Assembly (NCBI GenBank): GCA_944322255.1
Contig: CALUOK010000016.1
Coordinates: forward strand, 1-56,121
Length of the DNA stretch: 56,121 nucleotides
Direction: 5' to 3'
DNA from: Candidatus Methanomethylophilaceae archaeon
GTDB lineage: Archaea; Thermoplasmatota; Thermoplasmata; Methanomassiliicoccales; Methanomethylophilaceae
The notes below the pieces were generated by a model that worked only from the letters and a program-made list of their open reading frames with translations, did no database searches and had not been told where the DNA came from. Below are positions 31,642 through 35,725 of the stretch, one piece after another. Every line of letters begins with the position of its first letter. The first letter of the stretch is position 1. The position numbers were made by a program, and so were the translations under genes.

Positions 31642-32916
31642 ATGAGCGGTAGCACAATCACCCTTTCCAGCACCTCCGGGGGAGTCCCCGTGGTGGTCGA
31701 GAGCATCCCCGGCAGCCAGAGCGCCGCGTTCATGATCGGGGTGGCCACGGGCTCCAGGGACGAGCACCCCGGGATCTTCGGTCTGTCCCACCTCCTGGAG
31801 CACACGGTGTTCAGGGAGACCGAGACCAGGAACTCGTACCAGATGGCCAAGGAGATGGAGGGCGCCGGAGGGGAGCTCAACGCCTTCACCGGAAGGGAGA
31901 TGACCGCTTTCTACGGGATCACGATCAAGGAGACCGCCGCGACCGCCATGGACATGGTCGGCGACATCGTGGCCAACCCCAAGATCAACGAGGAGGATAC
32001 CGAGCTGGAGAAGAAGATCGTCCTCCAGGAGCTCAGCATGATTCGCAACGAGCCGGACAGCTACATCCACGACCTCTTCGAGTCCACCCTGTGGAGGGGG
32101 CACCCGCTGTGCCAGGACGAGGGCGGAGACGAGAAGATCGTCGCCGGGCTCACCTCGGCGGACCTGCGCGCCTACTACGAGGAGAAGTACAGGATCCCCA
32201 ACCTGGCTGTGTACGCTGCGGGGTCCATTAACGTGGATGACACCGTCCGCTGGGCGGAGGAGACCCTGGACGGCATGTCCGGCGGTCAGAGGAACCCCCG
32301 CAGCCCGCCGCAGACACCCGGTTCGGAGTACAGGTTCGTGAAGGGCGACGCAGAGCACTGCCACGTCGCCATGGGCTTCCCGTCGTACGGGGCGTCCCAC
32401 CCCGACAGGATGGCCGCATCCATGGTCAGCGCCGTGCTCGGGTCCGGGACCAGCTCCAGGCTGTTCCAGGCCGTCAGGGAGAAGAAGGCCCTGGTGTACT
32501 CCATATACAGCACCGTGTCCCAGAACAGCGACGCGTCGTCGCTCACATCGTACATGTCATGCACCGACAGGAACGTGGTGGAGGCCATGGAGACGGTCGC
32601 CTCCGTGGTTTCGCAGTTCCTGAGGGAGGGTCTGGAGAAGGGCGAGCTCGAGAGGGCCAAGAGGCTGGTCAAGGGCGCCAACGTCCGCAGCATGGAGTCC
32701 ACTGAGCACAGGCTCTACAGGCTCGGGGTCAACCACATGCTCAACGGCTCCACCGAGACCCTCGAGGAGCGCCTGGCCAGGATCGACGCCGTCACCGAGG
32801 ACGACGTCATGAGGGTGGCCCAGGACCTGCTCAGGGAGGACCGTCTCAACACCGTGGTCCTCGGCAAGGGCAACAGGGAGATCAGGAACTACGACGCCTC
32901 GGCGCTGACCCTGTGA
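31642..32916 (+). CDS. M16-family zinc peptidase
   Basis: Insulinase/pitrilysin-family peptidase of 424 aa. The inverted zinc motif HLLEH (HxxEH) is at residues 50-54 and the distal Glu lies in ELEKKIVLQELSM about 75 residues later. The C-terminal half repeats the fold as in two-domain M16B enzymes (GSGTSSRLFQAVREKKALVYSIYS is the R/Y substrate-binding motif). Intracellular; substrate unknown, with peptide clean-up the likely role. The 3' end overlaps the convergent hydrogenase protease by 35 bases, the longest such overlap in the window. Confidence 0.92.
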   Translation: MSGSTITLSSTSGGVPVVVESIPGSQSAAFMIGVATGSRDEHPGIFGLSHLLEHTVFRETETRNSYQMAKEMEGAGGELNAFTGREMTAFYGITIKETAATAMDMVGDIVANPKINEEDTELEKKIVLQELSMIRNEPDSYIHDLFESTLWRGHPLCQDEGGDEKIVAGLTSADLRAYYEEKYRIPNLAVYAAGSINVDDTVRWAEETLDGMSGGQRNPRSPPQTPGSEYRFVKGDAEHCHVAMGFPSYGASHPDRMAASMVSAVLGSGTSSRLFQAVREKKALVYSIYSTVSQNSDASSLTSYMSCTDRNVVEAMETVASVVSQFLREGLEKGELERAKRLVKGANVRSMESTEHRLYRLGVNHMLNGSTETLEERLARIDAVTEDDVMRVAQDLLREDRLNTVVLGKGNREIRNYDASALTL

Positions 32917-33391
32917 GCTCTTCTATTATGTGGAGGACGGCCCTGCCGGCGCTCTCCACGGAGGCCTCCACCTCGGGGGTCATGGTCTCGGTGACGGTCT
33001 TGATGTCCTGCACCTCGATGGCCACGAACCTGACCTCCTCCGGCATTATCTCCGGGTCCATCTGACGGCCGATCTTCATGGCGGTCGGCAGGTTCACGTC
33101 GTGGGACGCGGCATGGGCGATGGCCTCGTCGAAGTCGTGCTCGGAGAACAGCATCACCGTCCCTGGGCCGTACTGGCCGGTCTGGATGGCGTCGACTATG
33201 ACCGCGAACCTGTAGCCGTGGATGACGGGCAGGATGTCCAGGCCTCCGACGGCCTCCTGGCAGCAGTCCACGCCCTCGAGGTCCATAGCCTCGATGGCCT
33301 CCGACACACGGAGGCCCACGGCGTCGTCGCACATGATCGGGCTCCCCAGTCCGACGACCACTGTTTCCGCATCTCTCTTCACATCGCTCAT
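32882..33391 (-). CDS. Hydrogenase maturation protease (HycI/HybD family)
   Basis: Cleaves the C-terminal extension of a [NiFe]-hydrogenase large subunit after nickel insertion. The 169-residue protein begins with VVVGLGSPIMCDDAVGLRV; the metal-binding positions are Asp22/Asp23, Asp67 (VIVDAIQTG) and His97 (ASHDVNL), and QEAVGGLDIL is the conserved second motif. Its large-subunit target is not in the window; in Methanomassiliicoccales the candidates are Mvh- or Ech-type hydrogenases. It is divergent from the LysR-like regulator, which precedes hdrCB, so the group may be functionally linked to H2-dependent heterodisulfide reduction. Confidence 0.9.
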   Translation of the reverse strand: MSDVKRDAETVVVGLGSPIMCDDAVGLRVSEAIEAMDLEGVDCCQEAVGGLDILPVIHGYRFAVIVDAIQTGQYGPGTVMLFSEHDFDEAIAHAASHDVNLPTAMKIGRQMDPEIMPEEVRFVAIEVQDIKTVTETMTPEVEASVESAGRAVLHIIEELTGSAPRRRSS

Positions 33392-33458
33392 GGGATCGAC
33401 CGCCGATTGCGGTCATCGGTAATCATCTTTCGGTGTCCCGCGGGGTTCGACGGCATCA

Positions 33459-33480
33459 GTGTTATCTTCCAGGATAACAC
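33459..33480 (+). promoter_or_regulatory. Perfect operator palindrome over the TATA box of the LysR-like regulator
   Basis: GTGTTATC (33459-33466), TTCCAG spacer, GATAACAC (33473-33480): a perfect 8-bp inverted repeat. GTTATCTT inside it is about 27 nt before the regulator ATG at 33491 and is the probable TATA element, so binding would block initiation. This geometry suggests negative autoregulation. Confidence 0.7.
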
Positions 33481-33490
33481 TCCCTGCGGC

Positions 33491-34291
33491 ATGGACATCA
33501 CAGTGCGGAACTCCCAGACAATCAACGGGAAGACCGTCACCACCCGCCAGCTGGAGGCGCTCCTGGCGGTGCAGGAGACCGGGAGCCAGACCGCCGCGGC
33601 CAGGAAGCTGGGCATATCGGTGCCGGTCCTGCACAAGTACATCCGCTCCATAGAGGACGCCGCCGGGGAGCCGATCCTGAGGACCACCCCCGCGGGGTCC
33701 GTACTCACCGAGCAGGGGCTGAGGGTCGCGGAGCTCGCCAGGTCCATGGACCACCGCTGCGAGACCGACAGGGGGTTCACGGTGTGCTGCAGCCCCGTGA
33801 CAGAGGACCTGATGATGTCCGTGATCTCGTCGCTGAAGATCCCGGGGGCCAACATAGTCGTGTCCGACGACGAGTACAACATCCGCATGATGAGGGAGGA
33901 CCGCGCGGACCTGGCCATAATCGACGACCCACTGTACCTGTTCGACGCCGAGGAGTTCCAGATGGAGGAGATCGGCTACATGGGGATGGTGTTCGTCGAC
34001 AACGGCCCGTCGTTCATCAGGTACAAGTACGGGGCCCAGAGGGTCGCGTTCATGTTCCTGGACTCTGAGGACAGGGAGTACACCATCGAGTCCGAGACCT
34101 TCTCCCTGCCGGAGCTGCTTGGCTCCAACAAGAGCTTCTTCGTGGACGAGTTCCTGCTGACCAGGAGGAACCTGAGGCTGAAGAGCGCCGTGGACCCGAA
34201 GATGCTCCGCCACGCCATCACGGCCATCTATCGCGAGGAGTCCAAGAACGTGTCCAGGATCGTCAAGGCCCTGATATCCAGGAACCTGTAG
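33491..34291 (+). CDS. LysR/ModE-like transcription regulator with a substrate-binding-type domain
   Basis: 266-residue regulator. The winged HTH occupies about residues 16-75: TTRQLEALLAVQETGSQTAA and KYIRSIEDAAGEPILRTTPAG resemble LysR and ModE N-termini. The remainder (about 95-265) is an alpha/beta domain like the ligand-binding domain of LysR or type-2 periplasmic binding proteins (FTVCCSPVTEDLMMSVISSL, DLAIIDDPLYLF). The ligand is unknown. ATG 33491 is close behind a perfect operator. It ends in TAG, with TGA two codons later (TAG GAT TGA). It is followed by hdrC after 88 bases and is divergent from the hydrogenase maturation protease. Confidence 0.8.
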   Translation: MDITVRNSQTINGKTVTTRQLEALLAVQETGSQTAAARKLGISVPVLHKYIRSIEDAAGEPILRTTPAGSVLTEQGLRVAELARSMDHRCETDRGFTVCCSPVTEDLMMSVISSLKIPGANIVVSDDEYNIRMMREDRADLAIIDDPLYLFDAEEFQMEEIGYMGMVFVDNGPSFIRYKYGAQRVAFMFLDSEDREYTIESETFSLPELLGSNKSFFVDEFLLTRRNLRLKSAVDPKMLRHAITAIYREESKNVSRIVKALISRNL

Positions 34292-34296
34292 GATTG

Positions 34297-34319
34297 AGGA
34301 TTACCCGATAAGGTAACAC
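34297..34319 (+). promoter_or_regulatory. Degenerate copy of the operator upstream of hdrC
   Basis: GGATTACC, CGATAA spacer, GGTAACAC imitates the regulator's palindrome with the same six-base spacer; TTACC/GGTAA is the perfect core. CGATAAGGTAACAC (34306-34319) is identical to 24610-24623. It lies 22 or more bases upstream of the hdrC TATA region (TATTATATAT, 34341-34350), a position more typical of activation than repression. Confidence 0.4.
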
Positions 34320-34379
34320 CTTCTCGCCGATGACTATCCGTATTATATATCAAAAAACGGCTCACAAGGCACGATAACT

Positions 34380-34874
34380 ATGGTTACGCCCAACCCCGAT
34401 TTCGCTAAAGAGATCGCCGCAGCCGGCGGCGAGGAAGTCAAGATGTGCTTCCAGTGCGGAACCTGCACCGCTGGATGCCCCTCCGGAAGGAGGACCTCCT
34501 ACAGGGTCAGGAAACTCATGAGGATGGCCCAGCTCGGAATGAAGGAGGAGATCATCAACAGCGAGGAGCTTTGGGAGTGCAGCACCTGCTACACCTGCGT
34601 GGAGAGGTGCCCCAGGCAGGTCCCCATCGTGGACATCATCATCGCCCTCAGGAACATCGCTGTCGCCGAGGGACACATGTACGACAACCACAAGGGAACC
34701 GCCAAGAACCTGGTCAAGTACGGACACACCGTCCCCGTCAAGGACGACATCACCGCCCTCAGGGAGAAGCTCGGTCTGCCCGCAGTCCCGCCCACAGTCC
34801 TGTCCAACGACAAGGCCAAGGCCGACCTCGACAAGATCCTGGCCGCTACCGGCTTCACCAAGATTACGGAGTGA
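34380..34874 (+). CDS. hdrC: CoB--CoM heterodisulfide reductase subunit C
   Basis: Iron-sulfur subunit of the soluble HdrABC complex, which with MvhADG couples CoM-S-S-CoB reduction to ferredoxin reduction in hydrogenotrophic energy conservation. The 164 residues carry two [4Fe-4S] motifs: C23, C26, C29, C33 (CFQCGTCTAGCP) and C67, C70, C73, C77 (CSTCYTCVERCP). TATTATATAT at 34341-34350 is the TATA box, about 33 nt before the ATG. The codon usage is more strongly biased than its neighbours, as expected for a highly expressed gene. hdrA is not in the window; hdrB follows after five bases. Confidence 0.96.
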   Translation: MVTPNPDFAKEIAAAGGEEVKMCFQCGTCTAGCPSGRRTSYRVRKLMRMAQLGMKEEIINSEELWECSTCYTCVERCPRQVPIVDIIIALRNIAVAEGHMYDNHKGTAKNLVKYGHTVPVKDDITALREKLGLPAVPPTVLSNDKAKADLDKILAATGFTKITE

Positions 34875-34879
34875 TTCTC

Positions 34880-35725
34880 ATGGCAAAATACGCGTTTTTC
34901 CTCGGATGCATCGCACCCCTCAGGTACCCTGGAATCGAGAAGTCCACGAGGGAGGTCTGTGCCGCCCTCGGAGTCGAGCTCGTCGACCTCCAGGATGCTA
35001 GCTGCTGCCCCGCCCCCGGAGTCATCAGGGCGTTCAGCAAGAAGACCTGGCTCGCAGCTGCCGCCAGGAACCTGGCCCTCGCCGAGAAGCAGGGTCTCCC
35101 GATCCTCACCATCTGCAACGGATGCTACGGATCCCTGTTCGACGCCGCCCACGAGCTCGCTCACGACGAGAAGCTCCTGGCCGAGGTCAACGAGGTCCTG
35201 AAGGAGATCGGAATGGAGTACAAGGGAACCACCAAGGTCTACCACTTCGCCGAGGTCCTGTACAGGGAGGTCGGAATCGAGGGAATCAAGGCCAAGATCA
35301 CCAACCCTCTGTCCTACCAGGTCGCTGCCTTCTACGGATGCCACTTCCTGAAGCCCAGCAACATCAAGGGCGTCGACGACCCCGAGGACCCCAAGATCCT
35401 GGACGAGCTGATCGAGGCCACCGGTGCCAAGAGCATGCCCAGGAAGCAGAAGATGCTGTGCTGCGGAGCTGGAGGAGGACTCAAGGCCGCCTTCGGAGAC
35501 GTCGCCAAGAAGTTCACCGAGACCAACCTCGAGAACATGAAGGAGTCCGGAGCCCAGTACATCATCGATGTCTGTCCCTTCTGCCACCTCCAGTTCGACG
35601 GAACCCAGAAGGAGCTCGGATACAGCATCCCCGTCCTGCACCTGTCCCAGCTGTACGGACTGGCCATGGGAATGTCCGCAGACGACCTCGGTCTCTCTGC
35701 TCACATCACCCCCGTGACCCTCTGA
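34880..35725 (+). CDS. hdrB: CoB--CoM heterodisulfide reductase subunit B
   Basis: Catalytic subunit of HdrABC; its two CCG domains bind the noncubane [4Fe-4S] clusters that split the CoM-S-S-CoB disulfide. The 281-residue protein shows the CCG pattern twice: C10, C42-C43 (SCCPAPG) and C79/C82 (CNGC), then YGCHFLK, LCCGAGGG and DVCPFCHLQ. The ATG at 34880 is five bases past the hdrC stop. It ends TGA TAA and is followed by a hairpin. Heterodisulfide reduction is the terminal step of methane formation in the methyl-reducing order proposed here. Confidence 0.96.
   Translation: MAKYAFFLGCIAPLRYPGIEKSTREVCAALGVELVDLQDASCCPAPGVIRAFSKKTWLAAAARNLALAEKQGLPILTICNGCYGSLFDAAHELAHDEKLLAEVNEVLKEIGMEYKGTTKVYHFAEVLYREVGIEGIKAKITNPLSYQVAAFYGCHFLKPSNIKGVDDPEDPKILDELIEATGAKSMPRKQKMLCCGAGGGLKAAFGDVAKKFTETNLENMKESGAQYIIDVCPFCHLQFDGTQKELGYSIPVLHLSQLYGLAMGMSADDLGLSAHITPVTL

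Follow-up and report, generated by a model that had tools for sequence, protein, structure and literature searches.

Heterodisulfide reductase closes the methanogenic cycle, the regulation of this enzyme being poorly known, and no described hdr regulator in Methanomassiliicoccales was found among the open-licence papers searched. Judged by its described function, the closest precedent for the system presented here is HrsM of Methanococcus maripaludis, a LysR-type repressor that depends on selenium, acts on the intergenic region between frc and vhc and represses the selenium-free (cysteine-encoding) isogenes, including those of hydrogenases and hdrA (PMC11097638). HrsM, as well as the LysR-type regulator from Methanococcus voltae, is likewise an archaeal LysR-type regulator of redox genes of methanogenesis; the main role predicted here, in contrast, is to activate hdrCB by way of a site at a constant distance upstream of the promoter. 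With regard to the promoter arrangement, there is a likeness to Tar (TK0271) from Thermococcus kodakarensis, an activator that binds a palindrome 5′ of the BRE/TATA, i.e. at the archaeal activator position; Tar, however, controls aromatic amino acid operons and is not described as LysR-type in that study (PMC6737238). Bacterial LysR-type transcriptional regulators (LTTRs), such as BenM, CbnR, CcmR and CutR, share their architecture with the protein described below, although the latter comprises 266 residues without a match to any Pfam effector domain, has a variable residue at the wing-arginine position (placed by sequence alignment) and its predicted target promoters are of the TBP/TFB type.

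The window, i.e. the whole stretch of 56,121 nucleotides analysed, represents contig C16 of the 31-contig, 1.88-Mb genome of a Candidatus Methanomethylophilaceae archaeon. It contains, on the forward strand, the gene of the regulator (REG; 33491..34291), followed by hdrC (34380..34874) and hdrB (34880..35725), coding for the subunits C and B of CoB-CoM heterodisulfide reductase (TIGR03290, 193 bits with the cut-off of 160, and TIGR03288, 401 bits with the cut-off of 345, respectively). The hydrogenase maturation protease-like gene on the reverse strand (32882..33391; TIGR00072, 86.5 bits, cut-off 47) is transcribed divergently from REG and is, according to synteny, its customary upstream neighbour among the relatives, the order protease–regulator–hdrC–hdrB being maintained at most loci. 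Taken together, it seems likely that the regulator is an LTTR dedicated to the hdr genes of Methanomassiliicoccales, acting as an activator of hdrCB, a probable regulator of hdrA and, within a single genus, its own repressor.

The regulator is present in 76 of the 80 relatives spanning six families. In the scan of the phylum covering 295 genomes, it was found in all 54 Methanomassiliicoccales and in only two of the approximately 240 others. Three nearby genomes without it (G042, G044 and G064) also lack hdrB, so that its absence there looks like assembly gaps rather than counter-evidence; the regulator thus appears to occur in every well-assembled genome of the order. The two outsiders belong to another family of the same class (G260) and to another class (G086). 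In both of them the regulator is positioned immediately 5′ of hdrCB and a palindrome precedes hdrC, one (GCTTTACCGAAAAGGATAACGC) at the customary distance from the TATA box, the other (a perfect TGATTACCCTATATGGTAATCA) nearer to its TATA-like sequence; McrA was not detected in either genome (loci L218 and L219).

As for the protein itself, a winged HTH domain (residues 17–90) is followed by an effector-like domain (residues 95–266). Pfam recognised only the LysR HTH (PF00126; 48.7 bits, cut-off 26.6, E-value 7e-13) and yielded a match neither to an effector domain nor to a molybdate-binding domain. The AlphaFold2 model, based on 55 homologues (mean pLDDT 93.7, pTM 0.77), exhibits the linker helix and the two-subdomain effector domain typical of LTTRs, and a Foldseek comparison with the PDB retrieved LysR-type regulators throughout the best 50 matches listed, led by CcmR (E-value 7e-15), CbnR (1e-14) and BenM (6e-13). 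These matches span about 280–300 alignment columns of full-length LTTRs with a probability of 1.00, the single-chain TM-score being merely 0.4–0.5, as expected if the domains are, as seems probable from the model, oriented differently from those in the matched structures. Together, PF00126 and the LTTR-like predicted fold identify the regulator as a divergent LTTR. The initial annotation described it as LysR/ModE-like; the LysR part of this description holds, whereas ModE is not supported, the TIGR00637 score being 26.4 bits (cut-off 98.5). It should be noted that the position of the arginine reported as conserved on the LTTR wing (PMC12609908) corresponds by sequence alignment to residue ~64–65, occupied variably by T, A, S or R among the regulators.

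The main, order-wide conserved element of the locus is the palindrome in front of hdrC, the self-operator discussed below being the lineage-restricted one. In the window, the predicted activator site GGATTACC-N6-GGTAACAC, identified by its TATA gap and dyad symmetry, occupies positions 34298..34319 (in full GGATTACCCGATAAGGTAACAC) and is separated by 22 bp from the hdrC TATA box ATTATATA (34342..34349, + strand), the latter being recognised from its sequence and the column conservation at TATA-anchored positions. A palindrome of the type GTATTACC-N6-GGTAATAC is located 21–22 bp 5′ of the hdrC TATA box at 108 of the 112 distinct loci, which cover all six families searched and one locus from outside the order. 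The copy before hdrC had been correctly placed at an activator position by the initial annotation, which nevertheless regarded it as just a degenerate copy of the site at REG. With a position weight matrix (PWM) built from 64 hdrC sites and a threshold of 8 bits, 110 of the 112 distinct upstream regions reached the threshold, the gap between the end of the site and the 8-bp TATA box being 21 bp at 41 loci, 22 bp at 67, 23 bp at one and 10 bp at one, where the site lies about one helical turn nearer to the TATA box. While this gap is almost constant, the distance of the site from the hdrC start varies from −65 to −97 in the 110 scored loci, and so does its distance from the stop codon of the regulator gene (median 2 nt after the stop), the site even beginning within the regulator ORF at 33 of the 110 loci. 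Since the PWM count re-uses hdrC sites, a motif-free profile of dyad symmetry served as an independent check: its sole peak over the 112 loci is found at −44/−43 from the TATA box, with means of 4.4 and 3.6 out of 8 and a median across the offsets of 2.1. Of the four loci outside the 108, two show co-varied half-sites: at L041 and L201, the two below the threshold (GTATTGCT..AGCAAAAC and GTTTTGCT..AGCAATAC), both half-sites are altered together.

The site reported originally, the predicted self-operator GTGTTATC-N6-GATAACAC (33459..33480), is indeed a perfect 8-6-8 inverted repeat, GTGTTATCTTCCAGGATAACAC, and no other place in the window matches it within three mismatches, 0.09 being expected. 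It ends 10 nt before the regulator ATG at 33491 and overlaps the predicted TATA element GTTATCTT (33461–33468), situated at the position anticipated for a leaderless archaeal TATA box; in the REG promoters of the relatives, the best TATA-like score is found at −30 regardless of whether the palindrome is present. Aligned self-sites at −28 to −33 from the regulator start were found in most members of the genus to which the window belongs, as well as in a single neighbouring lineage (L036, L038 and L190), and 25 of 114 REG promoters reach at least 13 bits with the hdrC-trained PWM, compared with none of 600 shuffles. Most other families—and thus most of the order—are without the self-operator, so that the conservation in orthologous promoters, regarded originally as decisive for the palindrome, applies across the order to the hdrC copy, the self-copy being kept only in the genus and the single lineage. 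On the other side of this site, in the region 33391–33459, the predicted self-operator possibly serves the divergent protease gene as well; several relatives exhibit a weak preference for TATA 21–25 bp from the self-site on the protease side, which is not clear in the window. No operator of its own was found for the protease gene, there being merely weak hints of a shared one.

It is solely the position of the hdrC site, 21–22 bp upstream of the TATA box, that suggests the activation of hdrCB: a dimer placed there, always on the same face of the helix, would help to recruit TBP/TFB. At the second copy, which covers the regulator's own TATA box and hence suggests autorepression, binding would block TBP/TFB and result in negative autoregulation in the window's genus; self-regulation is common in LTTRs. 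The regulator could also be a repressor at all its sites that lowers hdrCB under some condition, in the manner of HrsM, the nearest functional precedent being a repressor (PMC11097638) and the self-site overlying a TATA box. This reading is considered unlikely, since the hdrC site leaves the TATA/BRE free and lies, at nearly all loci, 21–22 bp upstream of the TATA box, a position used by archaeal activators, Tar for example (PMC6737238).

Concerning the identity of the protein that binds the palindrome, the co-variation between the regulator residues and the half-site positions was evaluated for all pairs in 109 species. The strongest pair overall combines P45 with half-site position 6 in GTATTACC (z 13.9), the pairs P45-8 and K49-7 being likewise among the top five. 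At residue 49, lysine or asparagine pairs with T at half-site position 7, whereas arginine pairs with C: at least one T at this position is found in 32 of the 40 species with K/N49, but in only 7 of the 69 with R49. When the residue was evolved in simulations on a tree derived from HdrC, HdrB and the C-terminal part of the regulator, the K/N49–T7 correlation was reached in none of 2000 runs and that of non-P45 with non-A6 in 7 of 2000. Both P45 and K49 are located in the recognition helix and, by reading of the alignment, P45 corresponds to P30 in BenM and CbnR, for which a contact with the LTTR-box T has been reported (PMC12609908). The conserved pair within the palindrome, T5-N12-A18, defines an LTTR box of the T-N12-A type, with a spacing one base longer than in the T-N11-A operators common, albeit not universal, among LTTRs; T-N12-A boxes have been reported for CutR and PcaQ (PMC12609908), so that this is a known variant compatible with the LTTR class. 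The co-variation of P45 and K49 with the half-sites points to the regulator itself, and we infer that it binds the palindrome, its dimer presumably reading GTATTACC-N6-GGTAATAC via the recognition helix. Being adjacent does not make one gene the regulator of the other, and another regulator encoded elsewhere might bind the palindrome, the LysR gene being merely a neighbour; that is, however, quite improbable, given that the co-variation persists after allowing for phylogeny and that the regulator and the palindrome co-occur even in two lineages beyond the order.

Further sites were sought by pattern searches with the reversed pattern as a control. In the window's whole genome, GTNTTAYC-N6-GRTAANAC with at most one mismatch occurs at three places—upstream of REG, hdrC and hdrA—the matches with two mismatches being at the level of the control. 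The third site, on contig C27 (4070–4091), is found 224 bp 5′ of the hdrA start. Within the family, 25 of the 29 hdrA upstream regions score at least 10 on the PWM, all at −202 to −228 (this score is reached by 7% of shuffles per sequence), although the site is weaker in several species; the aligned copy is absent from 13 hdrA upstream regions of other families. The likely hdrA TATA box is positioned roughly 100–115 bp downstream of the site, unlike the arrangement at hdrC. The predicted targets in the window's genome are thus hdrCB, hdrA and the regulator itself. In Methanomethylophilaceae, the third copy, far 5′ of hdrA, would bring this gene under the regulator, making it probable that the whole HdrABC set is co-regulated. 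The view of a regulator of H2/heterodisulfide metabolism therefore stands for the predicted hdr targets, whereas its hydrogenase part is unsupported by the site positions, none of the strict sites followed up having been identified as preceding a hydrogenase gene. A separate feature of the hdrA upstream regions is the box CTGGC(T/A), present 23–25 bp after the site in 25 of 29 genomes (L078, 2501–2560; L082–L122), possibly as the binding site of a second protein. The idea of an RNA element in these upstream regions was rejected, there being neither an Rfam match nor a consensus fold.

That the inverted repeat 3′ of REG acts at the RNA level, as a terminator or processing hairpin, instead of being an operator, as its start at a median of 2 nt past the stop codon might suggest, is extremely improbable, because 33 of 110 repeats start inside the regulator ORF, the distance fixed is that to the TATA box and not that to the stop, the same palindrome is found at the REG and hdrA promoters, and the half-site changes of the TACC/TATC type break the RNA pairing yet suit the DNA half-sites.

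With regard to the signal, our guess for the effector of the C-terminal domain is a thiol/disulfide or redox-state signal. It is conceivable, albeit doubtful, that the regulator senses the state of the CoM/CoB thiol–heterodisulfide pool, or else some related redox metabolite, and adjusts the amount of Hdr accordingly, in a circuit predating the order; the greater age is suggested by its association with hdrCB also in the two outsiders, archaeal genomes without a detected McrA. The order comprises methane-making archaea of gut and sediment, and the proposed regulon of one protein and three promoters with a defined 22-bp site makes the control of a central energy step directly testable by binding, in vitro transcription and ligand screening, the co-variation between the recognition helix and the half-sites offering a ready test of specificity. 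It also represents a model of a LysR-type protein possibly activating a TBP/TFB promoter.

The co-occurrence of site and regulator, which the initial annotation had proposed to look for in related genomes, is borne out by the two outsiders carrying the regulator together with the palindrome. As for specificity, in 30 genomes of the same genus a related pattern gave 58 forward matches compared with 5 for the reversed control, the forward ones belonging mostly to REG, hdrC and hdrA and to one unrelated palindrome family. This last family, TTATTATC-N6-GATAATAA, was set apart, since it belongs to the locus of a different small HTH regulator and an alpha/beta hydrolase. It precedes, in numerous genomes of this genus (e.g. 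at about 2501 in L088, L089, L090, L091, L094, L095 and L096), the gene of a small ArsR-like HTH protein, with the hydrolase gene next in line, and is probably a separate self-operator. Finally, a site with one mismatch precedes a small uncharacterised gene beside a tRNA-guanine transglycosylase-like gene in two close relatives (L079 and L080, at 2501), representing possibly an extra target or a chance match.
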